A stretch of 64,000 bases of DNA, taken from contig CM067526.1 of assembly GCA_034509925.1 (NCBI GenBank), forward strand, positions 1,126,001 through 1,190,000. The letters are read 5' to 3'. Both the position numbers and the translations under genes were made by a program. Below, piece after piece: positions 1-62,684 of this stretch (the stretch's first letter is position 1; every line of letters starts with the position of its first letter). The notes under the pieces were generated by a model, which was not told the DNA's origin, did not search any database, and was given only the letters and a program-made list of their open reading frames with translations. This DNA comes from Hirudinaria manillensis. Taxonomy: Eukaryota > Annelida > Clitellata > Hirudinida > Hirudinidae.

Positions 1-870
1 GGTTCCACATCTCCAACCTTCACCCCTTTCCATTGTAAGTCGAGAGCATCCATTCCAGATTTTACCTCTCCAATTTCCTTTTCCAATTTCTGAATCGTCT
101 CTAACTTCGCTTGGAGTTCCTCTTCAGTGTTCACAGCGACTGGTTTGAGAAGCTCGGAAAGCCTTATTTCGAGTTCGTGGTACCTGTTCAGAAGTGGATC
201 GTAGGCTTTCTTTTTCAAATCTGCTTTTTCTTTGGCAATGTCTTCCTTTTTTGGAAGTTTCAATTTGATCGTCTGGATTGATTCATTAAACTTCTTCACA
301 AGATCAGAAGTTGGAGGAATGGGTTCCACATCTCCGACCTTCACCCCTTTCCATTGCAAGTCGAGAGCATCCATCCCAGATTTTACCTCCCCAATTTCCT
401 TTTCCAATTTCTGAATCGTCTCTAACTTCGCTTGGAGTTCCTCTTCAGTGTTCACAGCGACTGGTTTGAGAAGCTCGGAAAGCCTTATTTCGAGTTCGTG
501 GTACCTGTTCAGAAGTGGATCGTAGGCTTTCTTTTTCAAATCTGCTTTTTCTTTGGCAATGTCTTCCTTCTTTGGAAGTTTCAATTTGATTGTCTGTATT
601 GATTCATTGAACTTCTTCACAAGATCAGAAGTTGGAGGAACGGGTTCCACATCTCCGACCTTCACCCCTTTCCATTGCAAGTCGAGAGCATCCATTCCAG
701 ATTTAACATCTCCAATTTCCTTTTCCAATTTCTGAATCGTCTCTAACTTTGCTTGGAGTTCCTCTTCACTGTTCACAGCTACTGGTTTGAGAAGCTCGGA
801 AAGCCTTATTTCGAGTTCGTGGTACCTGCTCAGAAGTGGATCATAGGCTTGTTTTTTAAGTTCTTTTGTT
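1..870 (-). repeat. Near-identical 321 bp tandem repeat inside coding exon
   Basis: The plus-strand string GGTTCCACATCTCC recurs at 1, 322 and 643, giving an exact 321 bp period. Units 1-321 and 322-642 differ at only a few sites. The third unit stays close to about position 850 and then diverges. 321 bp is 107 codons, and the unit is translated on the minus strand as part of the giant repeat protein. Each unit carries KKEDIAKEKADL, YDPLLNRYHELEIRLSELL and LQWKGVKVGDVEP. The array reaches the left edge, so more copies probably follow. Confidence 0.9.
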
Positions 871-3800
871 TGAGATTCTTTTCTTATAATGTCCTCTTTT
901 TTCTGCATTTCTTCCTGATGATCAAGATCTTTTAGCTTTTCTTGCAATTGCTTCAATATCATACTGGGATCCTGCATTGTTATTGATGTACTACCTTCTG
1001 GTAAAGCTGTTCCTTCATACTTTACATCCTTCCACTCTGATTCAAGAAGTATGAGTTCTTGTGATAATTTGTTTGACTCATCTTTCAGTCGTTTGAATTG
1101 ATCTTTCTTTTGCTTCAGCACCTTTTCCTGTTGGCCAGGTAAAACTAGTTGTTTCATAACATCTTCCAACTCAATAGTAATTTCGTTCATTCTTTCTAAA
1201 AGTGGTTTGTAGATCTCCTCTTTCCTCTCTAACGATTTCTTATCGCCTTCATCAGATTCTCTATCAGATGCAAGCTGGCTCTTGAGAGAAAGGAATAAAT
1301 CTGACACAGCTTTCACGGGGTCTATAGTTTCTGTATTAACAGCACACTCGAAATGTTTCCATTTCTCATCCAACTCAGACAACTTTTCTTTGATTTGATC
1401 CATTTCATCTTCAACTTCCTTGATATGAATATCCCTCTGCTTTTTAAGTTTTGAATGCTTTGGGAAAATTTGTAGACCAAGTTCATTCCATTTTTTCTGC
1501 AGAGCAAACAGTCTTTCCAGCAAAGGCTCATATTCTTTATTCTTTTTTCTCAGTAGATCTATTTTCTGCTCATCACCACTTGAGCTTTGATTCCATTCTT
1601 CAGTTTCAGGTGGAACTATATCACTGAGAATGTTGAAGATATTTGAGAACGAATCAAATCCCTTCACTGGGTGAATCCTCCAATTCCCATCTAATTTGTT
1701 TAATTCCTTCACCAGTAATTCAATCTCATTGTCCAACTCCTTGAGTTTCTTGTCTCTTTGTTTACCTTGCTTTGGGTCTTTAATGTTCTCTTTTGCCAGG
1801 GCTTCTCTATTAAGGCTAAGTTCAGACAATTTGTCAAGCAAATGTTGATAAGGAGGTTTCTTCACAGTTTCTTGTGATACTTGTTCCTCTTCAAATTTTG
1901 TTTGAGCAGGTTCTTCTCCAGATACATTAGGTTTGTTCTCCACTTGTTCAAAACCAAAGGAAACGAAACCGATATTTGAGTAAGGATCAAATCCCTCCAC
2001 TTTGTGAATCCTCCAATTTGCATCCACCTTATCTAAACTCTTTTTTGTTGCCTCGATTTCCTTCTCCAACTCCTTTATTTTCTTCTTCTTTTTATCCTGA
2101 CCTTTCCTAGAGCTGTCACCTTTGTCTTGCTGGGCAGCAGTCAGCTGCTTGCAAAGGTCTGACAATTTGTCCAAAATATGCTGATAGGCTGGTCTTTCTC
2201 TAGTAGGTTCGACGGTCTTCTTAACGATAAATTTACCGTCTGCACTCCTGGGAATTTCTTTGAGTACCGAGGCGGTGTCTTCGTAAAGTGTTGCAATTTC
2301 TTCTTCAATGTTGACACCTTCTACTGGGACTCCTTTCCATTCAAGACTCAATTGGTCAACTTGACTTTTTGTGTTGCTCAAATCATTGTAAATTTTGAAC
2401 ACTTTTTTTTCTCTTATCAATCTTTCCTCTGGAGTCTCTCGTTCGGGGACAGAATTGATTGCCTCCAGGAGCTGCTGCTTCAGATGGTATATTTTGTCTA
2501 GGTAAGGCTGGAGCAAAGACTTCTTTGTTTCAGCTGCAACAACCTGCTCCTCTTTAGTAAGTTTTTTTGTTTTCTGAGGAGGTCTGTAGGATTTAATCCT
2601 GCTCTCTTCGATCTTGTGCGACACTTGACCGAACAGTCTGGAAAGGTCTTCGACGGGATCCGACCGCCCGACGTCGATCCCTGCCCATTCTAGCTCCAAG
2701 GCATCGACACCCTTTTGCACCAAAATCATCTCTTTTCTGAGTTCCTCGATGTTCTTCCTCGTCTCGGGCGAATCGACCTTTCCTCCTTTCATCAGTTCAT
2801 CCTGAGCCATTTGCAATTCCCTTATCCTCACAATATAAGGCTGACACAGAGCGAATTTTGCTTCTCTGGCTTTCTCCTGGTTGAGCTTTGCTTGAGGGAA
2901 TTTTACAAACTCCTCTTTGACAAATGGAATGAGATAGGCAGTGTAATCATCATAAAATCTCTTGTAAAGCTCCTCAAAATGAAAGGACGGATCCTCTTCT
3001 ATAACTTCCCATTCCACGCCGACTCCAGTTCTCAGCTTAATAAACTCCTTCCTCAGATCATCTAGGTCTGACTGGATTTTATCAATATTTTTCTTTTTCA
3101 CTTGCCACGTCTTTTCGTCAGTCGGTTTCTGGTTAGCATAATCGTTCCAGAGCTTCCTCAATTCTTCAAGTTTTCTGTTCAGCTCTGTGTACTTGATTTT
3201 CAAATCCTCCTTCAATTTCAGTTCCTCAGAAGAAATGTCTGTTTTTGGAACTTGCAGTACAAAACTGCCATCTTGGTTTCTCTGGATCTTCTTCAACTCC
3301 GAGGCGATCTCCCCATAAATGTTCTCGGCATCATTTTCAATGTTGAGTCCCTGAACTGGAACTCCCCTCCACTCGAGAATTAATCGGTCCAATTGCCGTT
3401 TTGAATCTTCAATCTCCCGGGAAAGTTTCTGAATCTTGCTCTGCCTGATCAAAACATCCTCCGGTGACTCGTTGTCTGTAACACTGAGCAGCTGGAAGAG
3501 CTGTTGTCTCAAGAGAATGAATTTATCCAGATAGGGCTGGAATAATGACCTCTTTGCTTCAAAGACCTGTGTTTGTTCTGCCCTTGTAAGATTCTTGGTT
3601 TTCTGAGGCTAAAAAGACAAATTTGCTCTTTATTTTCAGAGGTATGTTCGGATGTGAAGAAGCTTTGAAAGAAATCTTTATCTACCATTTATGCCAATCA
3701 AAATGGAAATTTTGCAGCATAATTAATAAATTCCCAAAATGCAAAATAAACCGACTAACGGGTCTGTAGATTTTTATTCTGCTTTCTTCCAATTTGTGCA

Positions 3801-6800
3801 ACACTTCGTTAAACAGCGTGGAGAGATTCTCGACCGGATCTGCCGGTCCAACATCCACGACAATCCATTCTGTTTCCAAAGCGCTGACCCCCTTTTGCAA
3901 CGAGTTCAACTCCTTCGTCAGCTCTTCGATGCGCTCTCTCGTTTCAGCCGAGTCGACTCTTTTCCCGGCCATCAGTTCTTCCAGGGTGATCTCCAGCTCT
4001 TTGATTCGTACAAAGTAAACAAGACAAAGGGTCGACTTCGCTTCTTTGGCTTTCTCCTGATCGGGCCTGGTTTGGGTGTATTTTGTGAATTCCTGGCAAA
4101 ACACAACACTATCTTAAAGTCTTCTGAATACAGTTGTAACTCACTTGACATAAAGAATGTATGAACATGGAGGCATAAATAATAAAGTAATTCCAATAAA
4201 AACAAATCAAATTCAAATCCAGGATGACCCACTTCTCTGATAAAAATGATTCTGTATATCATGTAATCGTTGAAGAAATTTCTGTAATAAGTCACGAAAT
4301 CTGCAAAGCCATCATCCGACTGCCAGTGCATCTTTTCCTTTTCTGCTCTCAATTTCAGTCGATCGAACTTTTCCCTCAACAATTTCAGATTCTGGTGCAC
4401 GTTCTGTAAAAGTAATGATTAATTTTTAAAAAATAAATAAAAAATAAAGATAAAATTTAATTATTAAAGTCAACTAATTGATTTTAGAAATTAAAAATAA
4501 AGGATGTTTTAAACACAGAAATAGAATCGAGCAGAATAAGCTTATAATTAAAGGCCAAGTACCAAACAGGCAAAAAAGCCAAAAAGTTCAGGACACTTCC
4601 GATAATGTTCAGCCAGACGTTATTTTATCTTATTATAGCAGAGGAGAACGACTTAAGTCATATTTTCGGAGGTAGAAAACATCATCGTCATTGACTTACG
4701 TCGACATCCTTCTTTTTTAAGTTCCAGTCTTTGAGGTCTTTAGACGCAAGGAGGCACTGATCTTGCCAGACTGACCTCAGATTGACCAACTGCTTGTACA
4801 AGTCATTGCATTCAGTTCTGATCTCATGAATCGTCTTTTCTCTGTTAGCTTTCTGTGAGGGCTGGTCGAGTTAAATATAATATAATTAAATATTTATTTA
4901 AATATTAATTATATATTTATTTCTAAGATTAGGTATGTAAATATATCCAAAAGTCATTCTTAAATTACTAATCCTTACTAATTGCAATCAGTGAGAAAGC
5001 AATTCTAAGAGTCGCCTACCCTCCTCCGAAATTCCACCCGAAGCTTCTCCAGAATGGGTCTGATGGTAACGTGGAGTTCATCTATGTATTCCATGAGGTC
5101 CTCACCTTCTACCGGAGGCAGGGCGGACCAGTCCCTCCTTATCTCTTCCGTTTCCTCCTCCAACATTTTGTAGTCGCTGACATGAAGCTAATGTCACATG
5201 AGAATGCAATTAATTATTACAGTCAATTATGCAATAATAATAATAATAATAACCATAATAATAACCATAATAATAATAATAACCATAATAATAATAATAA
5301 CCATAATAATAATAATACTTAAAACATTTGTTTATGACAATGCAAGTCTTAACAACAACAGTGCAGCAAGTTTATTATAAGACATTTCTATAAAAAAAAA
5401 AATAATCAAAAATTCTTATTACTAAAATGAATAAAATATCTTGGAGTCACATGGCAGAGCACATAAAGAACAAGAGACCCATCCTCATGAACAGCCATTA
5501 TGTTACAGATGATACAGACCTCATAATTGTCCCTCAAGTTCCAAAACTCTTGAGGGTCCTTGTTGGCAACAGAGAGCAGAGTCTTGAGGTGCCTCTCAAC
5601 GTTTTCCAGTCTGACGAGTACCGTTTGGCACCGATTCCTCTTCGCCTCGGACTGCTTCTTCAGGTCGGACTTGGTGAACTTGGACGTTCTTTTCTCCTTC
5701 TGAGGCAGAGGAAAGATGGATGGAATTGAAAGATGGAAAGATGGTTGGAATAATGAGTGAATGGTGTGATGTTAGATTATTAATTTAAATATCATTACAA
5801 ATAACCTTAAGTCTATAATGAATTATCATATTAAATTACGATGCTATAAACAGACTGCGATGCTATATTACAGACCTCACTTTAATTCTTGAGCTTTATT
5901 CAAAATCATATAAAGGCATTAATAGGTACTCATTAAAAGGGTTCAGAGGTTCTAGAGAAACAAAGAGATAGACAGAAGAAAGGAAAAGTAATATCGGACA
6001 AAATCTGCTGAGGCCAGAAAGCAATACCATACACAAACAAGAAGACATGTGTGAACTTTCACCTGCTTTGAAGCATTTCTAGCATTTTAGAAGTCTTGAT
6101 CAAAGCCTTAGTATTGTTAGATGAGCAAATTAATTAATTAATTTAATTAATATTAGGCTGCAAAGTAAGATTAAAACACCAACAAACAAACAAACAAAGA
6201 AGAGTGGGAAAGTTTCACAAAAGACTTCTTGTTTAGGTGAGGCTGACTTCTGAAGGAACCAATTTCATCACCTGAGTTGAACAAACATTTGTGAACAAGA
6301 GAGGATGCTCATGAAGTACCCATGCAACGAGACAAAGCCAGACATAAAAAAAAAGAAAAAGAAGACAAAATGGTTCCAAATATCATCACAGCAGAAGGTT
6401 TTAAAATAATAGATAATAAGAAAGAATTGATCACTTTGCTCAAAATGTTCGATGGAATTTGACAGTCTGTACTTGTTTATCAAAATATTTATTAAAATAA
6501 TTATTATTATTGTTATTATTATTAATATTATTTGAATTGTACGATTTTAATTTTTATTCCACTAACTGTTACTAATTATTAGTTACATAATGATCGCTAT
6601 GAAATGATGAGCCTCAAAATGATTAAATATTTTTTGGCTAATTTGATTTAATAAATAATTTAATAAAAGCAAAAATCTGCCAATATTTTCAATGATAATA
6701 GTAATAACAGTCCAAAAATAAACAGAAATATTGATCATTGATAAAGCAAAATTAAATCAAAGATCAGTGAAATAAACATGACTAACAGACCATAACATCA

Positions 6801-9800: not shown

Positions 9801-10935
9801 CAATCGGGCCATGTTCATTCAACACATTTACACTCTGATAAAAATGTAATTTTTAATTCACTTCTTAATGGATAGATAAAACCAGTAAACACGAGATAAC
9901 AAGAATCATCCTTCACAAAAACATCCCGCAAATATCCAGCAGAAATGGCAGAAAATCGTCCGAGAAAGAAATAAAACAAAACCAAAAGAATTTGTCAATT
10001 CCTTCCAAACATTATGCATTATGCATTCCTGCTTCAATCTCATAAATGCAATCGAGCATACAATAGAGGCAGAATACTTGAAAGCATTTCTGATCGGTTG
10101 AAAAGCTAATCGACAGAGACATGCACATTAACGAGGGGCGACCCTTGCAAACCTTTTCCTCTCGAGGCGGGGACACGTCTTGGGGATCGAGCTGAACGAA
10201 ACCCTGACCAGTGAGTCGTCTGGTCAGGGTGTCCTGGCGCGAATAGGTCGGAACGACCTTGTCCGCGCTCGAGCGATCCTCGTCTACCGGACCTTCCGCG
10301 GGTTTTTTGGCACCTCCGGGTTTCCTTCTAAGGACGTGGTGATGCCGGTCCGACAACTGGATCCGAGGATTTTGAAAAACTTCTCTTCAAAGTTCGTTCG
10401 GTGAAATGTGCAAACGAAACATCTCTACGCTACACGGCACGTCCAATCGCGAGCAAAATAAAAAGAGCAGGCAGTCAAAAGGAAGTACGACCGGGTAACT
10501 CACGTCGACTTGCTCCAGCTGCTCTTTCAGGTAGAAATCGAATTCTTCCTCCGTCAGGCTATCCACAGACCTCTGTCCGATGGAGTGCTCGATGTTTTCC
10601 ATGCTAATGTCCTTGGCGGTGGTGTGGTACTCCTTGGCCGTGACTCCGATGTAAGTACGGCTGCAATAGTAGTCCAGATCCACACGTTCTGTGGATGGCT
10701 GGGGCTCGAAAAAACCATCATCCAATTCAGTGGTAGAAGTTGCTATGCTAAGAGAATCGTCAGCCATGTTTCCTTTCAGCATTGAGTACAAGTTCACATA
10801 GGTCAGTGGGCAATAATTTCCATCCCTAAGGACAACAGTTGGATGTTTTTTGACCTGCCAAGTAAAGCATGAATTTACTTGATCAGTATAAGGATCTGGC
10901 ACGGCCAGGTAATTTTTAATATCCTGTTCGGCCAT
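1..10935 (-). CDS. Giant spectrin-like helical-repeat protein, 5' part (3' end off window)
   Basis: I do not recognise this gene by name. I read eight exons on the minus strand: 10935-10504 (ATG at 10935, MAEQDIKNYL), 10356-10153, 5699-5520, 5187-5020, 4852-4700, 4403-4233, 4092-3760 and 3608 to the window edge. All junctions are phase 0 with GT/AG ends. The first two exons encode about 212 aa of non-repetitive acidic and basic sequence. From 5699 on, the protein is a chain of charged helical repeats of about 105-110 aa, each with a conserved Trp in motifs such as LEWRGVPV, LEWKGVPV or LQWKGVKV. This resembles a spectrin-repeat or plakin-like rod. The last exon is open for about 1,202 codons with no stop. 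Function is unknown; the rod suggests a cytoskeletal or scaffolding role (inference). The least certain link is the 4.45 kb intron joining exons 2 and 3: the first two exons could belong to a separate gene. Confidence 0.7.
5700..10152. other. Large AT-rich intron, no gene seen
   Basis: This lies between the second and third predicted exons of the giant repeat gene. It is AT-rich with short open frames only. It contains a 21 bp minisatellite near 8380-8522, a TAA run near 8070-8108, a CAA/CAG-type run near 8930-9000, TAAA runs near 9618-9665 and a CAT run near 9726. I see no exon, RNA gene or transposon in it. Confidence 0.6.
8380..8522. repeat. 21 bp minisatellite, about 7 copies
   Basis: The unit ATATCACATTTTAATCTTATT is repeated about seven times head to tail. 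The first copies are near perfect and the last two carry substitutions (ATTTTAACC, then TTATTAAATC). There is no unique spacer between copies, so this is a minisatellite and not a CRISPR-like array. It sits in an intron of the giant repeat gene. Confidence 0.9.
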
Positions 10936-11812: not shown

Positions 11813-14536
11813 ATGAATATAGAAAGGTTTGAAGCTCTCTTCTCTGCTAGTGAGAGCGATGCTGACAAAATATGGATTGCATCCCAAAAAATTCACGATG
11901 CACTTCTGGATACCAGTTCACCCGATGATGCCATGACCCAAGAGCTACATATAGTCATACAAAGAATTAACCAGCTGAATTATTCATCACAGTTTTTATC
12001 AAAAAATGTAAGATGTTTCATTGTTAGGCACTAGTTATTAAGTGATGAGAAACGGTAACACAACAAATAGTAGAATATAATTTAATAGGAAATGGAAAAA
12101 GTGAACATTTTTACCTCTTGTTAAAGACTTTGAACAACACGATACTTTGCTTAATACGCCAGTTAAAAGTTTCAAACGCTAATAAAGTAAAAAATGCCAT
12201 GAAATGAATCGATTGGTGTTAATCAATCAACAATCAAATTCTTCTGATGTCACAAATTCTTGTGACTTGTTCTTGGAATTCAATGGCTCCGATGCATTTG
12301 ATTCCAGATCGCAAATGACATCATATCTGACCTGACCAGACTGGTTCCTGCAAAAGATGTCGAACTGCTGGCCAAGTTCAGCTGGCTTGTACTAAATTTT
12401 CTGAACAAACAGACGGTAATTAGTTGATTTCAGTTATAATTATGACATTTTAACTCATGGTGTTTGTTGCATACCTTGGATTAAAATTAAATATTAATAA
12501 TAAATTCACATAAATCATATTTTTACACTAAATAAACACGTGTTATCGTAAAATATTATGATATCAATCTTTTATCGGCAAACGTGGTAATCTAGCCTCG
12601 ATCGTATGTCAACGATTTTGGTAGCACGCATTAAGCAAACTTTCATTTCTCAGATCGTCTTGGAACGCGACGTCGAGAGAGTGGCCGAGTATTTCCTGAA
12701 GGCTTCCAGGGCGATTCCCCTCGCACCTTGCAACATCTCCGTCGTAGTTCTGCACCTCAGAGCTCTGGGCACGGTCCTCTATGACAACGTCAGGAAACTG
12801 AAGCCGGTAGAGCTTTTATTAGCTTTTAGTTATCTCAACTCTCAACGTTATTACATTATTATAACTGAGGTAGTTAAAGTGGTTCTTGTTCAATCCATCT
12901 ACCCAGACAGCTATCCTTCTATTCATCCACCCATCCATCTTTCTATTCACCCATCCATCCATCAAATAAGCATTGTTGCACTCAAAGATTGGTCAAGCCC
13001 CATGAACTTTAACCCCCACAGGTGCATGGAAAGGTTGTCGGGGACCTCAGAATCCTATGGCAGTCCTCGGGCCACCTCCTTCAGTCCACGGAGGTCCCGA
13101 AGTCCGACAAGTTGTCTCTCATGTGCGCCGTCGTGCAGTGCTACGAGAATCTCTCGGCAGAGTCGGTGAAATTTTCTGGATTACGGAGGATTATGTAGAT
13201 TTATTATTATTATCATTATTATTATTGTTGTTATTATTATTATTATTGTTATTATGTAGATTTATTTATTTATTTTTTCTTTTTAATTTGGGTCCAAATG
13301 AGTTTTTACTCCTTTATTAGTTTGTTAATGGGGGTATAAATGAAATAATTTAATATTAAACAATTATATTTAAATTCCTTCAAATTCTAATTTGCTTCAT
13401 CCTTATTCTCCTCAATCCATCCAGTTCCAAAAACTTTCCTGGCAGCAGTTACCTGAACGAGGAACACCAGGTGATTCTGGTCCAACACTTTCTTCAGGCT
13501 CTGCAGAGGCTCTCGGGATTTGACTGCATTGATGACTGTCTGTATTACAAGGTTTAAAATTTATTTATAAATTAATTTGGTATTGAATTTATTATTATTA
13601 TTCAAAGTTAATCGATTCGTTATTATTTTAAGTACTGCTACCACTGTCAAGTGCCAGTGCCTGCTGTATATATCTGTTTAGTGAGGACATTAAAAGAAAT
13701 TATAATGTTGTTCTTGTGTGTTATTGTAGAAGCACTTTTCGTAGTTTTTGCTTTAACTTGTTAGTACGTGTATTGGTTAAGTGAGAGGAATTTTTGCAAG
13801 TTAACGAAGGTCGATTTATCATTCAAAGATTGCATCGGGCAGCCTGAGGGGACTTAAAAACGTCATGGAAGCCGGTCGCACCTTTCCGACAGACCTGGTC
13901 GGGCACTTGGTGAGCCTCGTACAGGTAGGTTGGCACTATTGATTGGCATGACGAGTGTCGATTGTGTTGATGTTCTGATGCCAAACATTAACTGATCATC
14001 TGTCACCTAATCAACCAACATGTCTTTAATGTTCTCATTATGGTCAATAAATAAATATAAATAAATAAATAAATGAACAACATCATAATCATCATCATCA
14101 TCAACAAAGGGTTATCACAACGAGTGCAAATAAATAAATATATACGATTAATTTCCATGTCACGTTCCTCATCGAGTCATCCATTCTTTCATATTGATCA
14201 GACCACTGACATCTCAGAACAAAATCTATTTGCAATTAAAGAGGTATTCCGTCCTGGGCCACTCCGGACTGCCGGGCAACAACAAGGACCGAGAGCCATC
14301 CGGAAAAGGGCCAGAGACGGAGAAGGTCGAGGCATCCGTCGTGGAGGAGGGTGCGTCGACTCCTCCCAAGAGACCGGCAAAAAGTTCCGACTCCAGGTCG
14401 GAGCTTCTGACTTCAACTCCCAATCAGAAGCAGAAGAACAAGAGGCAGTCTAAAATGGTGTAATCGGACATCTTTTTTAATTTTACTTTATGACTAGCAA
14501 TTGCAATTGCTGTTGATATTAATGCTGTTATTATTC

Positions 14537-14578
<42 letters not shown>

Positions 14579-17500
14579 CATTACCATTATTATTGCTGTT
14601 TGTGATTGCATATTTATTATTACATAATCACAACGGCAATAAGTTTTAGTTTCTAAGGTCCAGAATTCCGATTCTTCGTGAGCGCAGTGAATCAATCGAA
14701 AGTAAATGATCTTTAAATATTAAACTGGCTTTGAAGTCAAAGAAGTTCCAGAAGCCGACCGGAGCCAAGGACGTCGGTCCGGAAGGCGAGGACGGGGTCA
14801 AACCCGCCCGGATTTACGAGGAGGATCAACCGAAAGGCACCCCGAAAGACTCCGAGGAGGACGAAGACAAATTTTGGGCGATGTTCGAACTATCCGACTC
14901 AGATCTCTCCGACGGAGAAGCGAACCAATCGTTTTCGAGGCCTTCTGGAAGCAACTTCGCTGCCAAGATCAGGACTCAGGCCCTGGCAGTTCTGCACGCT
15001 ACCGTCAAGGTTGCAATGCATTAATAATATTCCTACTAATTATGGCCTAGTTCATGAATAATTAACGAGATGAATCGTGGTTGATCGATATGGTTAACTA
15101 TCTGCCATGACACGATAATATCAACGTCGATGGACGTATCATAGCAGTGCGATAACATGACACACGTCAAACTCTGTCGTGCTATTAATTTACTAATGTC
15201 GTCACAGTGCGTGGACAGGAAGACGATGTTCGGGCACTGGCACCTCATCTTCCCCGATAGGTTTGTCTGCAACTGGAACCAGCTCAACAACTACCCTCTC
15301 TTCGTCGCCGTCATGAGGGATCCGTCGCACAAGGTTGGAAGGTCGATTGATCAGGGCCGGTCAATCAACCGATCCATCTGTCCATCCATTCATCTGTCTG
15401 TCTATCCATCCATAACCTTTTGATGAATTTAAATTTGTCCATCAGATGAGACTCGCAGCACTCTCCATCCTGACGACTCTTCTCGACGGATCGAAGCAGT
15501 TCCTCATGGTTGCCGAGGACGGGTGAGCGGGTGCTTCGAGGGGTAGGGGAGGAGGAAAGGATCCAAAAGATCACTGAAATGCATATTTAATTAATTTATT
15601 CAACTAACCATTTAAAATCTATTGCTTGAATGTTACCATCATAATTTATTTACATTTACATAATTTATGCAGATATTGCTATTTGATTAAGATTTTAGTT
15701 ACATTTAGATTTTTTGTTATCTTTTACTTGATGATTGTTGACTTATCGAGTTTTTTTTTATTTTTTTGAGTTTATGAGTTTATTAAGGTATCAAAGCAAC
15801 TAAAAGAACAAATAGCAAATTTAACATGTACAATATTAAACAAACTTTCAATACTTTCAATTCAGGGCACAGTACCACAACGTGGCCTATACTCCGTTTT
15901 CCGTCAGTCTCGGCAATACGATCAAAGAGCTGCACAGGTGCTTGCTGATGACACTGACCAGGGAACAAGTCCCTCTGGTACTCGTACAGGCCATCAAGGT
16001 AGAATAAATGTAATTAATTAACTATTACTTTAATTCATTCATAATTAATACTAATGTTATATGAATGTTTTGCCAGTCAGATGCCAATGACTACCCATCC
16101 ATAGAGCATTTGCATATTTTTAATTTCTTATTTATTTTATGATATTTTTCTATTTCTTTATAATTCCATCCCTCGTTTCAGTGCCTGGGTACTCTGGTGG
16201 CCAACTCACCCTATCATCGTCTGAAGCCGGGACTGCTCAACAAGTCGGTCAAGTTCGTCAGTCACTTCCTGTCCCACAAAGGTTTGTGTATACATATGTT
16301 TGTTGCCTGTTTGTATTTTTGTTTTTTTTTTTTTGATTGTAACTTTGAGCAGCTGATTGTTAATGTTTGACCTTGTCAGGAAACTCTGAATTAGACTGAT
16401 CATCCATTCCAGATGCCAACATAAAGGTCGTGGCTTTGACCTGCCTGGGCAAGGTCGTGTCGGTTCATGCCCCTTTGGGAGAGGTCATTCAACTCCTTGG
16501 AAACAAACCTTCCAAGGTCAGCTTCTCATCTCCTGGTTTCTTCCACCAGAGGGAGAAGTCCAAGGACGTTGGAGAAGAATCGAACCGTGACGAACTGGAT
16601 TTCAAAGCTATCCTATTGAGTGGTTAGTTCATTCATAAATGCAAACCTTCAGGCAAAATAAGGTTAAAATGGAACCCCATTGTTATTGAAAAGTGCTGGA
16701 TTTTCTCTCCTTCAATCATAGGTTCTGTCACTCCATTGCTCCATGGCCCCTCTGAACACTGCCTCGAGCTGAACATGGACAATCAAAACGGAACTCGCCG
16801 GGAGATGTCGTGGCTTCTCAAGTCATGCATCGAGATTGTCGTGTCAGGATGCACCAAGAAAAATTCGACGTTCGACCTTCCTTCTCCCGAGTCGTCCTAC
16901 GTCCACGTCGTCCCCGTCAGAGTCGAGGCTCTGCAAGTCCTGACATTGATGACTCAAAACTACTTCGTGGTAGTCAGGCCTCACCTCAAGGTCGTGCAAG
17001 AGCTGGCAGGCACTTGTCTTCAGAACGATCCGGACAATTCCATTCAGTTGCACTCCGTCAAGCTTCTCGAAGCACTCACTTCATCGGTGCTTTCCAACCA
17101 GTCCGAGGACAAGACTGCCTCTCCTGTCCACGTTCCATTAAAAGAGGCTCTAGCTCTTTGGAACTACATTCTGAAGGGTCCCATTCAGAAAGCTCTTTCC
17201 AACAACGGTGATTCGATGGTGGAGATGGTGGCATGCGAATGTTTGGGAAACATCGGGTCGGACGTTTTCGAGAAGCTGCCAGAGAAATCCTCGGATTTCG
17301 TCAAGACCATCGTCCTCGGATTCTCCTCGGTGTCCGACCACCACATTTGCGTCGGAGCCCTTTCTGCCGTCGGTCGGTCTGTCAACTACCCCTGCCTGAG
17401 CTGCGATGCCCTGTTCTTGGTCGACGCTTCCAATGCCGTCCTGAGGTCACTCAAAACCAGCAATCTCGGAGTCGTGACAAAGGCCGCTTGGGTCCTAAGC

Positions 17501-19116
17501 AATCTCAGCGATGCTCTGGTTCTGCAGAGAACGGATAGCGAATTTGTGGAGAAAATTCCTGACTGCCTGCTCCTGAAACTGCTCGAGAGCTGCGTGGATC
17601 TTTGCTCCATCCACGACAAGCCCCGCTCCAATGCTCTGCGCACCGTCGGAAATCTCCTCAACTTCCTCCCGCCATCTTCTCTCGATGACGGAAAGTTTGG
17701 CACAGCTATCAGGAATGGCCTCCAGGCGATCATCAAATACATTCAGTCTGGAAGCGTCAAAGTGCGCTGGAACGCTTGCTATGCGTTCGGAAATGTCATG
17801 TGGAACGAGCCCGTACTCTCTCTTGTCTCCCACAAAATGACGGAGGCCTACGAGGCTCTGGTCAAGGCCGTCAGGACGTGCAAGAACTTCAAGGTCAGAA
17901 TCAGCGCCGCGACGGTGCTGGCCATACCGTCGAGAAGGGAAATGTTTTTCCGAGGGGACGAGTCGAGGACGTCTCTGAGGCTGTTTTCGAGCACGGCTGA
18001 CCACAAGAGTTTCGCAATCTGTCGGACGGAAAGTGGCAACCAAGCGAGCAGCGTCCACTTCTACCGCTACGCCATCAGGAGCAGGAAGGGATCGATCGAT
18101 CACTTCCATCCGGGAAGCTATTCCCTCGACGTAGACGTCGAGACGGAGTTCGGAATGATGCGGGGTGCGGAGAGGAAGGTCGGCTGCCGAGACGACTGCT
18201 TCGCCGTCGTTTGGGATGGCATCCTGTCGGCCCTTCTGGAGTGCGAGTCCGGTTCCGTCCACTTCGCGGAGATGAAGTACAAGAACGTTCTCGTATCAAG
18301 GGTAAGTTGGTAAACTATTACACATCTCTAGAACTTCTTTCCTTGACTTGTAGACCACTCTGTCTTATGCTTTCTTTTTTTGGTGTCCAAACCATGCAAC
18401 ACAAGCGGTAGCTTCGCGATTGATTCATGATTTACCCGAACAGCTGATGATAACCCTCCTCCATCTTCTCTCTCTGGTCGTACCTGGTGACCTCGAGCAC
18501 TGTTGGAAATCTCTTAAAGGTCACGAGGACCTGATAAAGAGGCACTTGCAGGTCAATAACGATGAAGAAGATGCTGTCAATGACAATGACGATGACTGCA
18601 AGCTGCAGCCCAGAGGAACTGTTGCCAACAAAGTTAAAAGTCAGTGCTTGTCAATTTGAAAGTATTGGTCACATAATTATTATTTTTATTATTATTATTG
18701 TATTGGACTGATATGCATGTCATTTCATGACACTCAGTTGAGGATGGCCTCAGAGAAGTGAACAGGCACTTTTCCATGCTCCCAAAGTGTGCCTCCTTGA
18801 CCGAAGCACACCTGGAGGCCATCGGAGGACTCTCCGGTATCTTCTGTTCAACCACAGGTAGGAAAACAAGTAACGTATCAATTTCCAGACCGATTAATGA
18901 ACAAATATTAATAATAATAATAATAATAATGATAATAATAATAATAATAATATCGATGATGATCAAGTGATTACTTTAGTTACGAAACTAATTTAGTAGA
19001 GTGAGACTTGCTCAAGCTGCGCCTAATTTTAATTGCATACGGATTTGCCAGAGGCTGACACCGACCCAAACGCTGACCAAGGCATGGAGCTGAAATTCTT
19101 CCAAGTCTACGACTGA
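11813..19116 (+). CDS. HEATR6: HEAT repeat-containing protein 6
   Basis: Seventeen exons: 11813-12007, 12308-12415, 12654-12806, 13022-13161, 13425-13551, 13829-13924, 14242-14457, 14737-15009, 15208-15333, 15446-15522, 15866-15998, 16182-16281, 16413-16622, 16722-18301, 18444-18639, 18738-18857 and 19052-19116. They join in phase to 1,304 aa; human HEATR6 is about 1,180 aa. Family-diagnostic stretches are FGHWHLIFPD (DUF4042 region), LDGSKQFLMVAEDG, IKELHRCLL, VEALQVLTLM and VKVRWNACYAFGN followed by CKNFKVRI. The N-terminal and C-terminal parts are helical HEAT repeats, with an acidic low-complexity linker at about residues 280-410. HEATR6 is a poorly characterised HEAT-repeat protein amplified in some human cancers; no enzymatic motif is seen. 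For the fourth exon I chose the donor after GCAGA, not the stronger-looking GAGTCG|GTGAAA, because only the former keeps phase with the fifth exon. Residues about 1060-1143 are an insertion absent from the human protein as I recall it. Confidence 0.93.
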
Positions 19117-19433: not shown

Positions 19434-22400
19434 TCAGTCTTCCTTCTTCTTTTTCTTCTTTGGTTGGCTTTTTTTCTTTGTGGGCAGTGAAGGGGTTTTC
19501 TCGACCCCCATTGGGGTTTTGATTTCGAGGTTCTTCAGTCGTGGAAATTCGTCCGAGCATGACAGGCAGAGTTGGTCCGTAGATTTGTTTTCGGAAGCCA
19601 ATTCAGTGGTCGTGTTCGTCGAATTCTGGTCGGCTTTAGCCGACGGATCCGTGGCGGTTTGCTCATCGTTTTGGTCCTCGTTCTTCAGTTCTTCAACTTT
19701 TCCCGCTTGGTCCACGTTCGTTGTTTTCATCAATTCATTTTCGTCAGGTACTGAAGTTGACTTGGACGGTTGGTAAGAATCCTCACTGGAAGTGGCATCT
19801 CTTGTCAGGTAAGGCTTCAACTCTTCTGATGAGGCAGGGAATATGGGCACCGTGTGCCTTCTTGGCGGGTGCTTTTCGTTCGAATCAAACTCTTTCACTT
19901 CCTTGTTTTTGCTGACAAAAAATGGCGAGTTGATTTGTACTTCTTTGTGTGCAATTTTAACAGGTTCTTTTTGAGAGTAGGCATAACTGGTGAAGGTATT
20001 GTAGAGATTCACTATGTTGGATATTGTGGAGTCGAAGGAGCGCACCAGCATGAGACCAGGAAAGCGAGGGTTGGTCTCTTTGGTCGAGTAACAGGAGGTG
20101 ACCAATGACTGGGTATCCAAAGAAGGCAGGCCTTGGAAATTGTCGCTAGGGACGCTCGAGGAAGTGATGGGCGAATTGTCCGTGGAACACTTGGATGCTT
20201 GGGGCAATGTCGAATAGGTCCTCTTGCTAGACTGTGTTCCGATGTTGAAATCCCAGAAGTCCCTCAAGTCGGCAGGACCGGAGAGGATGCTCTCTGGCCT
20301 GTTCGGATGACTCGTAAAAGAGACGGTGTCGTCTTCTACTACATCTTTGAGGATATCGCTGCGAGGCAAATCTTCGACTGGAGTTTTGACCAATCTCGGG
20401 GTCTTGGTACCGTCTCTCGGCACTTTTGCAAGGATTTCGGCGTTTATGTCCTTCCACAGTTTTCTGATCATTGCATTCCTTTCGGCTTCGTTTGACGGTC
20501 TTTCGATAGAAGATTTGTCGTCCTCACTAGCGGGAGGTCTGCCTTTCAACAGAGTTTCTGTCTTGTCGGAAGGAGACAAAACTTTGTCAGTTTCGAGTTT
20601 GACTCTTGCTTTTGGATCTTTGGTCGACGAGTGAATCTTCACGTCGAAGGGGATTAATGCAGGGGGACGCATGAGTTCTATTCTATTGCCTTGGATAGGC
20701 TGTTTTCCATCCTGACTATGTTGTTGAACCAGCGATGGCCTCTTTTCATTTTGGGAGGCCACAGCCTCTGCCTTGGCATCCGTGGGTTCCAGCCGGTTGG
20801 AAACTTTTTCCAGGCCTACAGCCTGCGTCGCTGTCAAGGACCTGATGGCTTTGTTCAGTACTTCGGCGGATATGTCCTTCAGAGTCACTGCTTCAGTTTT
20901 GAATATCCTGACCGCAGTGCTGATGGTATTCTGTATGTTGAGCATGCTCTGTGACATCAGCTTGGCCTCCATGTCTATGAGATCGAGAAATTTATGGATG
21001 GGCGGTACGTTGGCATTGGGCTTCTTGGTCGGCTCCTCCTTCTTGACTGGAAAGGTCGGCTTGGAAATGTTGACGGATTTGGACTGCTCTTCTTTGTCGA
21101 CTTCCTCGTTGTCGAAAAGACTCGTTAAGATGATGGTGTTGAAGCTGACTTTTCTCTCACGTTTTAAATCCTGGGCCACTCGATTTTCCGAGACCGGTGA
21201 AATGTCCGATGAACGTGGCGCCCTATCCGAGTTTGCCTGCTGCTCGACTTGGGCCGAACTCTCGGCTAGAAAATCATTCTCGATATGATTTTCGAAGCCG
21301 CTTATATCGCACTGAGTCGAAGCGTCTATAAGAAAAGTAACTGAGGATTTCTTGTGGTTCTGACCGGCGTCTTTCACAGCCGGTGGCAGAGGAGATGACT
21401 TCTTCTTCAGGATCGGTTTGGCTTTGAAATCGTCCTCGGAAGAAGCTGCAAAAGAGTTCTTCGAATCGGAACGCAGCACCGGAATGATGGAGACCGGCAG
21501 AGGCTTCTTGACTAACTTTGGAAACTTCGAACTGTCGTCGGTGATCATCGACGATTCCGTCGGTCCTGAGTTTACGTAAGGACAATCGAAGTCCGTTTGG
21601 GTGAACTTATTCTTGCCGAATCTGTTCCTTCGCAGCTTCTTCGACCGTCTTCCTTTTTTCGAAAAATCCACCCTGACGCCGTTCCTATCGTCATCGTTGT
21701 CATCTTTGCCAGGCGGAGTTTCGCCGCTGGTGTCGGACGTTTCGTACTCCGTCGAGGTATCCTTCTCCAGTATCTGATTCTGCATCTTTTGAACCGGGAA
21801 CTGCTTCCTCAGCGAATTTGTTCCGGGATTTTTGCTGTTCGTGTATATGAGACTGATCGAGGAAACTTTTTCCTCGTCGGTCAGGTTCGATTCGAGAATG
21901 GCTCTCATGAGAGTCAACTTGGCGGTGTTGCATCGCTTTGCCGTTACGTTTCGCGCAAAGAAGTTTTTCTGGGGAGAAGCCAAAATTTCGTAGCTGTCCA
22001 GCAGAGCCAACCGTGTGGCAGCAGGGGAGGACTCGAGCTGGGGGTTGGCTTGTTCCATCGACCCTACTTGGACGGCCATGGAAATGTCGGTGCTCGGAGG
22101 GATGTGCGTCGAGGAGTTGCTTTCTTTTTCCGATCGTACCAGGCCTCCGGAAAAATCGTTCTTCCAGTCTTTTCTCGTCGAAGTGTTGTTAGGATGGCTG
22201 GTGGATGCGAGTAGCTTCTCCTTACTGAGTAGGTCCGAGATTTCGTCCATGTCGGTCATGGTCGATGCGTTCTGCTTTGTTATCACGCTCGGATTCTCTT
22301 CGTCGACGCGCAGAGGTTGTATGACGATGTTCTTGTCCCGAGTCAGACCCACGACCAGCGCTTCGGACTTGTCCTTGTCGTGCGAGGCATCTTGGAAGAC

Positions 22401-24149
22401 GACGCGAGGTGACGTTCCGTTTTCCTTCAGCACGATTTTCAACGAGTAGCCGCTTTTATCCAAGACTGAGGTTTCGAGGGAGTCTGAAGCAGAGGTCTGA
22501 GTGGTCTTGTCGACCAACATTGTCGTCGGGGTACTCTTGGCATGGATCTTGTGCGATTCCTCGAGTTTCGTAGAGTTATTTTCTTGCAAAACCGCAGTCT
22601 TGTGGGATATTTCCAGGGGTATTTTCATTTTTTCCTCTCCAAGACCGGAGCCTTGGGGCAGTTCGTCCGCCATTTTATTGTTGCTGCCTTGCAAGAGGTT
22701 TATCTTCTTAGCGTCACCTTCGAGCTCGTTCGAAGCGCCGTTCTCCGAAGGCCTGACCTCCTCGAGATTTCCAACTTCCGGAGTTGCCCTTTTGATGGCT
22801 GGGTTGATAGGTTGCTTTGCCACGGTTTCGTTTTCCAATTTGTCACTCTCCTCGGCAAACATCATTCGAAAGGCCTGAGAAGAGCCTGAAAACAGACTGG
22901 CGGTGTCGAATTCTGGAAGCTGATAGTCGGCGTTCTTCTGTCCTTTGGGCTCGTGTCTTTTGGAATGAACGTGTTTGTTTTCAGGTTTTCTTTGATCCTG
23001 TCCGAAGACGTTTTCAACTTGTGAAGTTAGGGAGGGAGATTCAGGGAACCATCAAATGCACTGACCTTGTGGCCATTGCCCCTCAAATTCCAGCTGGCTT
23101 CCACGACCATCATGCACTGGAGCATCTGATCCTGCAAAGCTTTCTGGAGCGACAGAATGTTACTCGCCAAGTCCTCTATTCTGCCGACTCTCATTTTGAG
23201 GAAGGAATTCTTCATGGACATGTCTTCGAATTTCTTCGTCAGGAACTCGTTTATTTCCTCCAATTTGACTTCGTAATGTGCTTGACCCTGTTTTTGTGGA
23301 TTTAGTAAATAAATCGATTAAATAGAGATTCGGTCCTTCAACTAGTTAAACACAATCAAGTTACTCAATTCATACCTCACTCACCTGTTGGGTTTCACTT
23401 CCGAGCGAGTGTAATTGGGCGTGGTCGGACGACTCCTCTTCGTTCTTCAACACTGATTGGTTCGTATCCGGCCGAGTTGTGTCTTGGGATTTCTCAGCGT
23501 CCTTAGAGGGTACACCGGTCTCCTCTGTACCGGAGAGTTCCTCGATTTCTTTGTTATCAACATGTTCAGAGGCTTTGTTGGATAAGTCGATGGCGGTTTT
23601 CGGAACATCAACGATATCTCCTAAATAAAGTTTGAATCTAAAACGCGAACTCTGACCAATGATTCTCTCATGGAGTGTCATGTACAGGAATACGTATTGA
23701 ACGTCGGTTGGTGGAACCTGAGAATAACAAAAATAAATAAATACGAAAGTGTTTATCTCCTAAAGGAGATATGAACCAATGCCCACCTCGACATCCACCA
23801 GGTTAAAGGTCACGCTTCTGTCCAGGGGCTTGCTCTTGAACGAAGGACGCTTCTGAGCCCAGACAAAAGTGACGAATTCGAAAGCATTTTCGTTGTCTTT
23901 GTTGCATTGGAACAGTCCGATCCAATCGTCCGACTTGGTCGAATGAGACTTGAGTATGGAGTATTTCAAGACTATCTTCTCCCCTATCGCGTAGCAATCC
24001 GGAACATCCCTGAACTGAATCGGCTGTATGCAGTCTCGACAAGGAAACTCAAAGTTGATGCAGACAGGTTTCTTCACGGTGGAAGCCATTTCCGAATTCT
24101 TAATGAACTGATATGAATCAAGAAAAAGGCTTTTTGAAGTTCTGTCCAT
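19434..24149 (-). CDS. SKICH-domain protein with long disordered tail (CALCOCO/TAX1BP1-like)
   Basis: Four exons on the minus strand: 24149-23787, 23717-about 23385, 23287-23066 and 22997-19434, giving about 1,493 aa. Residues about 25-145 form a SKICH domain: IQPIQFRDVPDCY, DDWIGLFQ, FEFVTFVWA, then VQYVFLYM and SRFRFKL across the first intron. This is the pattern of CALCOCO2/TAX1BP1 N-termini. Residues about 235-305 are a short helical coiled-coil segment. The last exon (about 1,187 codons) is Ser/Lys/Glu/Asp-rich and looks disordered, ending in a lysine-rich tail. It contains several TQT-type motifs and three FPxL motifs. Vertebrate relatives are selective-autophagy receptors; that role here is inference. 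No C-terminal zinc finger of the TAX1BP1/CALCOCO type is seen, and the tail is far longer than in vertebrate members. I read the ATG at 24149 as the start; an in-frame ATG (MASTVKKP) lies 20 codons downstream. Confidence 0.78.
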
Positions 24150-26340
24150 TTTGATTCAAAATCCTAACAAAGTCTAACCTCTTCCAAAACTTTCATAACC
24201 TCTTTCCAAAGCTACTCCCTCAGCTAGATACATAACAGTTTTTTTTTATTTTATCATTTCGTAGCTTGTTCTGGAAATGATGGCTGATTTTAAAAAGTTC
24301 CCGTTTGGCTTCATTGCGTCATTGTCGTCTGCATAGAAACGCGCCTTACTGTTCCGATTTTAGGATAATTTTCCATTAGTTATTTAAGGACGAGGGAATT
24401 TATTTCTGAGTTTTTAGTTTTAAATGAAATAATTTTTTTTCTTTAATTTGAAGTCGATTTTAGGAAAATTGATTATTAAATTGCATAAATTTTCGCCATT
24501 ATCTGACCTTAAAATGACCAGAATCTATATAAATTTTCAAAATTTAAAATCGACTAAAGCATAAATCTTAACCTAAACAGATAAATTTTTAAAAGGCAGA
24601 CGACCAAATCGTTCGATGATGGATTGTTCAAACCAGATCATAAAACCTGTACGAAGCTATGAATGGCTTGTTTATACTTATTTCATCGTCGCTTCTTTCT
24701 GCCTTTTCTTCATATTGTTGTTAAACGCATGACAAAATCCTCGGTATTTTATTAAAACCTACTCAAAGAGCTCTGAAATTCTTTGGATTTCATTCGCCTC
24801 TGTGCCAATGCTTTTGTGACTCCATTAGACGCGTATCTTTGAGGCCGCGCCCCGAGGATTTTGAATTTTTATTTCGTAAGGACTTGATGACTTTTCAGAT
24901 TAGTGAAGTACGTCTCTTGACGTTCGTCATTTGATTGAAATTAATTTACTGTAGTGTACTCTCTCGTCACAAGACAACAAAGGCAAACCAAAACTCTTGT
25001 TTCTCAAGAAATCAAATGCAGATATAAAAAAAAATAATCTGACAGTCTACAGAGACATTGCCGAATGTCATGGCTAACCGTAAAACAATTTATCCAAAGT
25101 TATTCCCACGAGCAATTACTCAGACAGAGCATTCGTCGATCGAGTTCTGAGGAGGTGAATAAGACAGTTGAGATTCCTAATCTCAGTGACTATCGTAGTC
25201 ATCGGGGTCACCAGTAGGGTTGGGGTGTTCCGCGGGAAATTCTAGCCCCACGGTCGAATACTAATCCGGGTGCGCCAAAGTATTCCAGATCCTCAATTGT
25301 TCAGCCATTGTCCCATGGAAATGGCAGGAGGTCTCTTAGAAAAATTTAAATAAATTTTTAAATTAAAATTTAAAGAAAAAAATGTTAATCGAAACTTCGA
25401 ATTTCAAGTTTAAAACTGACGGCTTGTTGTTTGAGGTCTAACATCTGTAGATTTTTTTGTGCGGATGGTTATTTATGGTATATTAGATCCCTTATTTATT
25501 GTTTTATAAGTTGTTAATATGGCGACTATTCGGATTTTCTTCACATCCATCGATTGCTCTCCGAAAAATTGCATCTGTGCATTCGAGCTCTTTGTTTTGA
25601 CTATCCTCATTCACGCGCACCTGTCAACTCACCTCGTGCATGAAACAGGTGAGCTTCTAATGCAGGTGAGGCTGTTGTGTTTTGGTTATCAACAGCTGAA
25701 GCCTGGCAGCCTACATTGACATAATGAAAAATGGAGGATAAAGTTTGTAAACAAGAGATAATCAATCGATCGCCATAATTAGCCAACCAATCAACCGACC
25801 GATCGACCAACCAACCAACCAAAATAGCTGACCAATAGGATAATAGGTGGTGATCACGTGCTCTTATGGAAAGGATCGACATGTTCTCATTTCCGTTCGA
25901 AAGACAAAGTGCCAATCGATTCGTAGACAATGGTTGACGACGACCAATGACCGTGCCATTCCTATTCTGTCGTCTGGGGATTTCCCCGACGGTGATATCT
26001 CAGATGACTCACTGACGGTGGCAAGCTTCGGATACCTTCTAGTTAGATTATAATTAACACCTTTTTATAGACCTCACTTTAACAACTTGACGAATTGAAT
26101 AAATAAACAAAACAAAAACCGGTCTCATGAATATTCATCCCTTCGGAGGCGGGGCCGAGCTGTGCGATCAACCGTAGCGGAGTATACGAGTCGAGGCTGC
26201 CACTCATTCTCTTCTACCCACTCTCTCGTCCCGGTCCAATCGCTTGTCTCCTACTCACTCGTGTGAGTAGTACGTAGTACATAAAACCATGCCGGACCTG
26301 TGATCTCTTCGGAACACGCAACTCTACTTTAGCTTACCTG
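24150..26340. other. Intergenic region with a hairpin-rich segment
   Basis: This gap separates two divergent genes (SKICH protein minus, sHSP plus). It is AT-rich and non-coding by eye. At about 25118-25262 there is a run of four potential hairpins, described in the findings. Near 26276-26285 a TATA-like ACATAAAA lies upstream of a possible non-coding first exon of the sHSP gene that would end at about 26340 (donor GTGAGT). A downstream acceptor for that exon is not fixed. Confidence 0.4.
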
Positions 26341-31420: not shown

Positions 31421-32310
31421 CGTTGTTGTTATTCTCATTATTATTATTGTTGTGTTGCTGTTGTTGTCACGCTCAGTGCTATTAATAGTGTAGAAACAGG
31501 AAGACAACATATGGAATTAAAGATATATCTCCATTAGAGGTGTGTGTATGTGCGTGTATGCGTGTGCGTGTGCGTGTGTGTGCATGTATGTGTGTGCATG
31601 TGAATAATGAATTAGATGTATCAATCTAAACAATAGAAAATCTATTTTAAGACGTGTGACGACAAACACAAAGGACCAATGAGAAACGAGCACATGACGT
31701 CATGAACTAACCATGACTAATACTTGATGAGATTGGCCCTGTTAACAATAACCACGTCATTATCAAACAAATGACAATTAAACGACTTAATTTAATCAGA
31801 TTAATCTTAAACAATTATAAAAATAATTGCAATTATCATCCTAAAAAAGATAATAATAATAATAGCAACAATAATAATTCCAGATACGCCGATACGACTT
31901 CAATGTCTGCCAAATTGAACAGCAAGGGGATCCTCAAAATCGAGGTTCCCCTCCTCTTTTATTTCCCCTCGGACCACGAAAACAGGGGGTCGACCAGCAG
32001 CCTCGGAAAGTCCTTCGTCTACGAGGTCAAGACCGACCCCAGCGGGTCAAAGGTCATGGAGATCGTGGTCAAGCCAGGGGCAGAGGTTACCCTGAAAGAT
32101 CTCCGAGTCGAGGTAAGCGAAGAAGGCCAGCTGACGGTCTACGTTGAAAGGCAGACGGCCGATCAACATGGCGGCAGGCAAAAGAAGGTGATAAAGACTT
32201 ATTCTCTCCCCCAAACTGCCAACTTGGACGGCATCAGTTCCAAGATGGCCACCGATGGAACACTGACCATCAGCGTGCCAATCTCAGGAGGCCGTGTATC
32301 GATGAGATGA
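26671..32310 (+). CDS. Two-domain small heat shock protein with long N-terminal extension
   Basis: Four exons, 26671-27914, 30021-30195, 30393-30472 and 31884-32310, join in phase (2, 0, 2) to 641 aa. Residues 1 to about 415 are Ser/Arg/Tyr/Asp-rich low complexity, ending in a helical stretch ([18 protein letters not shown]). Residues about 444-521 are a first alpha-crystallin domain split over three exons: [39 protein letters not shown], then [15 protein letters not shown]. Residues about 543-635 are a second one in the last exon: [47 protein letters not shown]. Alpha-crystallin domains form dimers and act as ATP-independent holdases. Two-domain members are known from flatworms (the p40 egg antigen family) and other spiralians. 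The protein is two to three times longer than those relatives. Introns 2 and 3 are filled with ATT and ATCC microsatellites. The start is the first ATG of the long open exon. Confidence 0.85.
27915..30020. other. First coding intron of the sHSP gene
   Basis: A 2.1 kb intron with donor GTGGGT and acceptor AAAAG at 30020. It holds a TCG/TCA run near 29586-29632 and ATA/ATAGTA runs from about 29915 to 30005, ending about 15 bp before the acceptor. The segment about 28900-29080 is more GC-rich and contains the direct repeat GGTAGCCAATGTTTG twice, about 42 bp apart. It has no coding capacity. Confidence 0.5.
30216..30315. repeat. (TTA)n microsatellite in sHSP intron 2
   Basis: About 32 near-perfect TTA units lie within a 197 bp intron between exons 2 and 3, so the tract makes up half the intron. 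Similar ATT-family tracts recur at about 31098-31192 and 31376-31430 in the next intron. Confidence 0.95.
30478..30550. repeat. (ATCC)n tetranucleotide repeat
   Basis: ATCC/TCCG tetranucleotide units start just after the donor of sHSP exon 3 (exon end 30472). Shorter ATCC runs occur at 7225-7250, 12930-12962 (a HEATR6 intron) and 15375-15415. Confidence 0.9.
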
Positions 32311-40203: not shown

Positions 40204-41065
40204 GACGAGCCCTTTTTTGTCTTTCTGAAGCAAGCAGCCTTCAGATTTCAGCTCTTCGTTCAGGCCTCTTAGTCAATTTCTTTTAGTCTTTTTTATTATC
40301 CCTTATTACGTATTCTCGGTCATAATGCAGTTCATGTGATTTCTTAATAAAGTCAAGTTTTCAGACGCTCAACGATGTAGATTCCTTATCAGACTAAGAC
40401 GTTTTATAATTTCGTGTTTTTGTTTTTGCGAGCCTAGAAAATTCATCCGTCCCTCATTCAATCGCTCATTGGCGACAAAGCTCATCATCATACTATCGCA
40501 TACATCCACCTCGCTACCCGACATACATCATCATCATCAACATCATCTTCATCATCATCATCTTCGACACCATCAACATAATAATAATAATCGCTAGCCT
40601 AATCACTATAATATATTAATAATTACACGGCAATAGAATTCGTTTTTGCAAACTCACAGCTGAGACGACGACAGAGATACGAATAGGTATAGGTCCGCAT
40701 TGGAAAAATACGCAAAGGCGAGCAGTTTTCAGCCCAACAGACCGCGCTACCCACTACAACTACAGACGGTGGACCATCTACGGCCCTCTGGGTACCCTCT
40801 GCGTTTGCCGTTCGTCGTAGAAATGAATTCGCAACACGGCATCGGTTGTATTTTGTTTTCTTTTTCTTTTCCTCCTCTCTCGATATTCTCTTCTCCTCGG
40901 CTGCCTGCCTCTAGCCGCTCTCAGAGCTGGGGATGCAGGCTTCATTAGCATAGAAGAACATGAATATTCATCACATCGGGGCACTGCGCTTCCGATGCGA
41001 GGATGTTGCTGATGCTGTCCTGCTGGCAGCAAGTCATCGTCGCGTCATCGTCGTCGTCGTCGTCA

Positions 41066-44924: not shown

Positions 44925-62684
<17,760 letters not shown>

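Follow-up and report, generated by a model that had tools for sequence, protein, structure and literature searches.

What kind of gene carries a coding exon of several thousand codons beside exons of ordinary size, and how could such an exon have arisen? The question is raised by a minus-strand open frame at the left edge of a 64,000-nucleotide stretch of the Hirudinaria manillensis genome (the window; C1:1126001-1190000), and the genome searched comprised 148,429,096 bases in 23 contigs. The original prediction described one exon of about 1,200 codons that runs off the window edge, in a gene for a protein of well over 1,900 amino acids. The frame is present as described, and its size was understated. 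On re-translation it had no stop from 3608 to 3 (1,202 codons), and in the assembly of the same genome extended leftward past base 1 it stayed open for 3,735 codons, to C1:1118401. It begins after an acceptor at 3608 (minus strand) that reads ttgtctttttag and then CCT. We refer to it as exon f and consider it very likely, from the domain matches presented below, to be the exon that encodes most of the rod in an animal gene of the nesprin-like KASH type.

Chance is excluded for this frame, since in 200 single-base shuffles of exon f DNA the longest open frame among all six frames averaged 142 codons and reached 236 at most, far short of the actual 3,735. In the unshuffled exon f DNA, no frame other than the coding one held more than 193 open codons. 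Giant exons are already known, as in ankyrin-type cases. Nor is exon f the sole open exon of such length in the window, which also holds an open frame of 1,205 codons at 19434-23051 (minus strand), together with 23760-24155 (minus strand). The 19434-23051 frame had no Pfam match at an E value of ≤0.01; a SKICH domain (E = 8.5e-13) lies upstream of it.

The gene model was built by hand from splice sites and reading frame. It has 14 exons and extends from an ATG at window position 10935 to C1:1114275, so that its 3' end lies about 11.7 kb left of window base 1. The model contains 5,226 codons with a single stop, the final one, and predicts a protein of 5,225 aa, in line with the large product originally proposed. 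GT-AG borders were found in all 13 introns, with the frame kept throughout, and every one of the nine introns lying between exons 1 and h is in phase 0. Upstream exons, first estimated at 150 to 330 bp, measure 180, 168, 162, 171, and 333 bp for the five nearest to exon f and 204 and 432 bp for the next two as modeled (Table 1). Exon 1, exon 2, and exon k (26 nt) were chosen by hand, and some donors in the model are weak (gttcat and gttggt). An alternative acceptor for exon 2, which needs a -1 slip at an AAAAAAC run (10302-10308, minus strand), was rejected in favor of the acceptor before 10356, which keeps the frame. Exon 1 folded alone gave a pLDDT of 38 and was uninformative.

Table 1. Positions of the exons and repeat features assigned to the putative nesprin-like gene (window coordinates unless prefixed with C1)
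Feature	Position	Strand	Length	Remarks
Exon 1, from proposed ATG	10504..10935	-	432 nt	Phase 0; without Pfam match
Exon 2	10153..10356	-	204 nt	Phase 0; without Pfam match; boundaries hand-chosen
Exon a	5520..5699	-	180 nt	Phase 0; N-terminal part of unit 1
Exon b	5020..5187	-	168 nt	Phase 0; C-terminal part of unit 1
Exon c	4700..4861	-	162 nt	Phase 0; N-terminal part of unit 2
Exon d	4233..4403	-	171 nt	Phase 0; C-terminal part of unit 2, plus linker
Exon e	3760..4092	-	333 nt	Phase 0; whole of unit 3
Exon f, whole	C1:1129608..1118425	-	11,184 nt	3,728 codons
Exon f, in-window part	1..3608	-		Repeat units 4 to 13 and most of 14
Intronless counterpart (units 4 to 6) of exons a to e (units 1 to 3)	2580..3608	-		127 of 329 aligned residues identical
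Start of near-identical tandem array	1..857	-		321-bp period, 96 to 97% matches; continues left of window

On the opposite strand, a HEAT/ARM-repeat gene, which we take to be HEATR6-like, apparently occupies 11813-18313; its domains lie at 16628-18313, and the ATG at 11813 was read by eye. We read the frame that opens with this ATG as the opening exon of the HEAT-repeat gene; this gene and the nesprin-like gene would then apparently start about 0.9 kb apart, head to head. If the HEAT-repeat gene does start at 11813, the 5' end of the nesprin-like gene falls between 10935 and 11813.

About half of the predicted protein, from residue 213 to about residue 2738, consists of 23 copies of a helical unit of approximately 107 aa. 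Three copies are encoded by exons a to e and 20 by exon f (11 of them in the window, the last one cut). One tryptophan is invariant across 14 aligned units, and the unit carries a WKGVxV-like loop. Units 21, 22, and 23 match the unit profile with E values of 4e-10, 1e-10, and 3.5e-12, and these three alone are independent of the profile, which was trained on units 1 to 14. With P0001 as the query, all 7 genome matches listed at an E value of ≤0.001 were at the nesprin-like locus.

The unit had no convincing match in the family libraries searched. When single units were compared with Pfam, none of the families listed (25 of 43) appeared in more than 2 of 14 units at an E value of ≤0.1. The best single-unit match was Seryl_tRNA_N (E = 1.4e-4, in 1 of 14 units), FapA reached 3 of 11 units at an E value of ≤1, and the spectrin profile (PF00435) matched 1 of 14 units at an E value of 0.012 and 1 of 11 in the other run. 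The in-window exon as a whole gave no spectrin row at an E value of ≤1 in Pfam, and its matches in Pfam, NCBIfam, and PDB sequences were coiled-coil noise. Nucleocap_ssRNA (25.1 bits at a cutoff of 25; 32.8 bits in another run), TEX15 (39.4 bits at a cutoff of 27), and SGS (31.4 bits at a cutoff of 23.9) exceeded their Pfam cutoffs over the whole exon and were rejected, because no stretch passed alone and the totals sum weak pieces over a near-identical array. A PDB match to vimentin with an 11-unit profile (E = 0.0011) was read as coiled-coil composition. Six short peptide patterns found no relative in genome_contigs or viral_contigs, as expected for an animal gene.

Profile and structure comparisons bear on whether the unit is a spectrin repeat. 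An hhalign comparison of the unit with spectrin gave a probability of 0.9% and a score of 14.4 over 19 columns, below the reversed control (15.0) and above the maximum of 30 column shuffles (12.0); a two-unit profile scored 17.8 with a probability of 1.5%. The spectrin profile used here was made from 12 of 101 genome matches, chosen for length and freedom from stops, of which ten came from elsewhere and two from the nesprin-like gene. The short match places the unit tryptophan near the helix-C tryptophan of spectrin. An AlphaFold2 model of two units has three helices per unit, and Foldseek returned 221 matches at an E value of ≤10 and none at ≤0.001, among them spectrin-type chains and unrelated bundles. 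On these results together, we read the unit as one that may work like a spectrin rod, and we do not file it as spectrin. No description of the 107-aa unit or of the gene was found in a small part of the literature, and we regard the combination of this unit, its exon register, and the absence of a calponin-homology (CH) head as a variant that was not found described in the literature searched.

The exon structure of the first units offers a view of how exon f may have formed. Once spliced, exons a to e can be aligned with exon f over its initial 343 codons, which indicates that the giant exon opens with an intronless counterpart of the five-exon block. Within this alignment the a/b junction falls inside a 6-residue gap, gaps of 7, 5, and 2 lie near, and the c/d and d/e junctions are gap-free. 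The internal introns of units 1 and 2 both lie between profile positions 63 and 64, as placed by an intron-register profile trained without units 1 and 2, against which these held-out units scored weakly (10.5 and 7.2 bits). Introns at unit starts were placed at profile positions 7/8, at 2/3, and just before 4; for the first of these, junction b/c, a second overlapping alignment of unit 2 (11.1 bits) gives 51/52 instead of 7/8. Junction 2/a is outside the aligned part of the profile. Units 1 to 4 start at or a few residues from an intron, always in phase 0, and the 20 units of exon f have no introns. Intron loss is indicated by these intronless units standing beside intron-bearing first units.

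Most likely, the giant exon arose by intron loss in an array with two exons per unit, after which a single unit was recently amplified in tandem. The ancestral unit would have consisted of two phase-0 exons that were duplicated together with their introns, and introns would then have been lost from unit 3 and from the units of exon f. Copying through an mRNA is one possible route for such a loss, put forward here without proof. In the opposite history, the units originally had no introns and units 1 to 3 acquired them later; in its favor, intronless is the more frequent state, as the giant exon holds 20 of the 23 units. We consider it unlikely, given that two units share a mid-unit intron site and that units 1 to 4 start at or near introns of a single phase, a pattern explained most simply if intron-bearing units were duplicated before the loss. 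Under the intron-loss reading, exon borders in register with the repeat, preserved beside intronless copies in one gene, make this locus a readable case of giant-exon formation.

The amplification step concerns nine units spaced at exactly 107 aa. Units 2 to 8 of this array are 97.5 to 100% identical among themselves in DNA; compared with them, the first copy is 95.3 to 97.2% identical and the last 88.5 to 89.4%. The array would reflect recent tandem amplification of one unit after intron loss. Nonsynonymous divergence was lower than synonymous divergence (dN < dS) in 33 of the 36 pairs of units, and the remaining 3 pairs had a dS of 0 and a dN of ≤0.004, in keeping with translation of the frame. 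Near identity of this degree, as in units 2 to 8, also marks the type of array that assemblers are prone to miscount, and the size of exon f could in part be a product of miscounted or misjoined 321-bp units. We think this improbable as an account of the exon, as the frame is open across the entire array, the first and last units are clearly divergent, and no run of five or more N was present in the 50 kb examined. The copy number may be off, and the exon without the nine array units would still have about 2,765 codons.

The affiliation of the gene is suggested by its downstream part. Exon h contains four spectrin stretches (E = 2.5e-20; 73.4 bits at a Pfam cutoff of 29.9), a Spectrin_SYNE1 match of 50.5 bits summed over three stretches (cutoff, 35), and a weak SYNE3 match of 22.3 bits (cutoff, 30). 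Spectrin matches also occur at the end of exon f (43.2 bits over P0002; cutoff, 29.9); P0002 had no match among PDB sequences at an E value of ≤0.01. Genome searches scored the best candidates only, so their counts are lower bounds. In these searches two spectrin matches of the nesprin-like gene exceeded the cutoff (41.4 and 36.7 bits), and 4 of the 7 Spectrin_SYNE1 matches listed, including the best three, fell in this gene, with no single Spectrin_SYNE1 match over the cutoff (best, 27.9 bits). The early description of the exon as encoding spectrin-like helical repeats is partly supported: spectrin matches occur at the end of exon f and in exon h, and the 107-aa unit itself was not matched to spectrin in the profile comparisons.

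In the last exon, a single transmembrane helix precedes a tail that ends in SFSGGPPPT directly before the stop. No 19-mer elsewhere in the protein is as hydrophobic as this helix (2.31 at aa 5187; best elsewhere, 0.91). Pfam KASH matched the tail at an E value of 2e-4 and 22.0 bits, against a cutoff of 23, over only positions 2 to 35 of 58, and three unrelated stretches outscored it in the genome KASH search. Among the 9 weak genome matches listed (E ≤ 10), the present gene is the one with a frame ending in PPPx. A comparison with the PDB matched no solved KASH peptide and gave one chance row (E = 1.1). Counting the last residue as 0, the tail has PPPT as its last residues and phenylalanine at -7, where nesprin-2 has tyrosine. 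The KASH-tail residues that matter, according to the available part of one study, are a PPPX end, an aromatic at -7, leucine at -9, a hydrophobic residue at -17, and cysteine at -23 (PMC6527376). The present tail departs from this pattern with tyrosine at -9 and threonine in place of a large hydrophobic residue at -17. It has isoleucine at -23 and cysteines at -15 and -19, and we do not file the gene under the long-tail KASH subtype.

SUN-domain exons are present in the genome, on contigs C7 and C3. No calponin-homology match was found within 1 Mb of the gene; of at least 67 in the genome, the nearest on the contig is at C1:2291128, and we do not file the gene under the giant CH-KASH nesprins. 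The spectrin and SYNE1 matches, the KASH-like tail, the SUN genes, and the lack of a nearby CH domain together make a nesprin-like KASH protein that lacks CH and belongs to the LINC complex the most likely identity, with orthology to nesprins suggested by Pfam profiles.

We see little probability in the view that this is a giant cytoplasmic rod protein of the plakin, dystrophin, or muscle type, with the KASH-like exons forming a separate small gene or a chance resemblance. It could appeal to a Pfam KASH score just below the cutoff and to exons i to l, which are short and whose joining to exon f is predicted from splice sites and frame. Against it, frame and phase fit through exons g to l, the SYNE1/spectrin exon h lies between exon f and the KASH-like exons on the same strand, and the tail has its transmembrane helix and a PPPT placed exactly before the stop, an ending that none of the 8 other KASH matches listed shares. 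That the gene is a decaying pseudogene is scarcely credible, with 5,225 codons free of an internal stop and the dN and dS values of the array pairs.

The nesprin-like KASH protein shares features with several known systems. Nesprin-3 is a KASH protein without a CH domain and far smaller than 5,225 aa; the likeness lies in the lack of CH and in the weak SYNE3 match given above. Drosophila MSP300 and mammalian nesprin-1 and -2 resemble the present gene in having spectrin repeats before a C-terminal KASH tail and in the SYNE1 profile match. As far as the available text describes them, they have more than 50 spectrin-like repeats (PMC8139857), whereas here the N-terminal half is built from a different unit and no CH domain was found, a comparison made through Pfam only. 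CH-less isoforms that retain KASH exist for MSP300, as stated in the accessible part of another paper (PMC8616381). The tail of Caenorhabditis elegans UNC-83 has a short luminal part without the -23 cysteine, as here, a likeness in a single feature taken from an excerpt (PMC6527376).

The closest parallel in overall form is C. elegans ANC-1, a nesprin-1/2 orthologue and giant KASH protein whose rod contains tandem repeats that are near identical at the nucleotide level, and whose CH-less isoform ANC-1b suffices for nuclear anchorage in hyp7, according to the portion of the paper at hand (PMC8139857). To the extent of that account, giant KASH proteins and near-identical rod repeats are already known, and ANC-1 and the present gene are alike in giant size, near-identical rod repeats, and a CH-less form. 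By the same partial description, ANC-1 has six 903-residue repeats and, in its longest isoforms, CH domains, whereas the present gene has nine 107-aa units within a series of 23 and no CH domain found. We tentatively speculate that the 107-aa unit belongs to a separate, non-spectrin rod-repeat family that came to occupy the N-terminal half of a nesprin. The two exons per unit of its array would have become a single 11-kb exon by intron loss, perhaps mRNA mediated; this loss would have freed the array to grow by unequal exchange and so given nesprins that vary in length, in convergence with the repeats of ANC-1.

If it acts as known KASH proteins do, the protein probably ties the nucleus to the cytoskeleton. 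Its one C-terminal transmembrane helix would anchor it in the outer nuclear membrane. The last 20 or so residues, ending in PPPT, would lie in the lumen, where SUN-domain trimers of the inner membrane may bind them, and the long helical rod would extend into the cytoplasm. Without a CH head, the nucleus or a membrane system could be held through other contacts of the rod or through the N-terminal 212 residues. We infer transcription as a single mRNA, a nuclear envelope location, SUN binding, and force transmission. Giant KASH proteins serve both to move nuclei and to anchor them, roles that forms without CH can fill in worm and fly, as reported in the parts of the two papers available (PMC8139857, PMC8616381). 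The missing CH head does not speak against an anchoring role, since CH-less ANC-1 and MSP300 isoforms act in nuclear anchoring. A giant that lacks CH and carries an unlisted rod unit of recent amplification would offer a natural test of whether anchoring is done by the rod and not by an actin-binding head.

Elsewhere in the window, RING, B-box, filamin, and NHL domains occur in this order at 35423-40272 (minus strand), in what is presumably a TRIM2/3/71-type gene; the filamin match seems to be split by an insert, as it takes 168 residues to cover 71 profile positions. An HSP20/alpha-crystallin domain was detected at 31717-32310 (plus strand; E = 2.1e-9), and open frames at 46000-57000 (minus strand) resemble, by eye only, a cell adhesion receptor with Ig and FN3 domains. 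The whole window gave 133 tandem-repeat rows, and trinucleotide microsatellites are very numerous from 29500 to 64000, including a 282-bp AAT run at 51636-51917.
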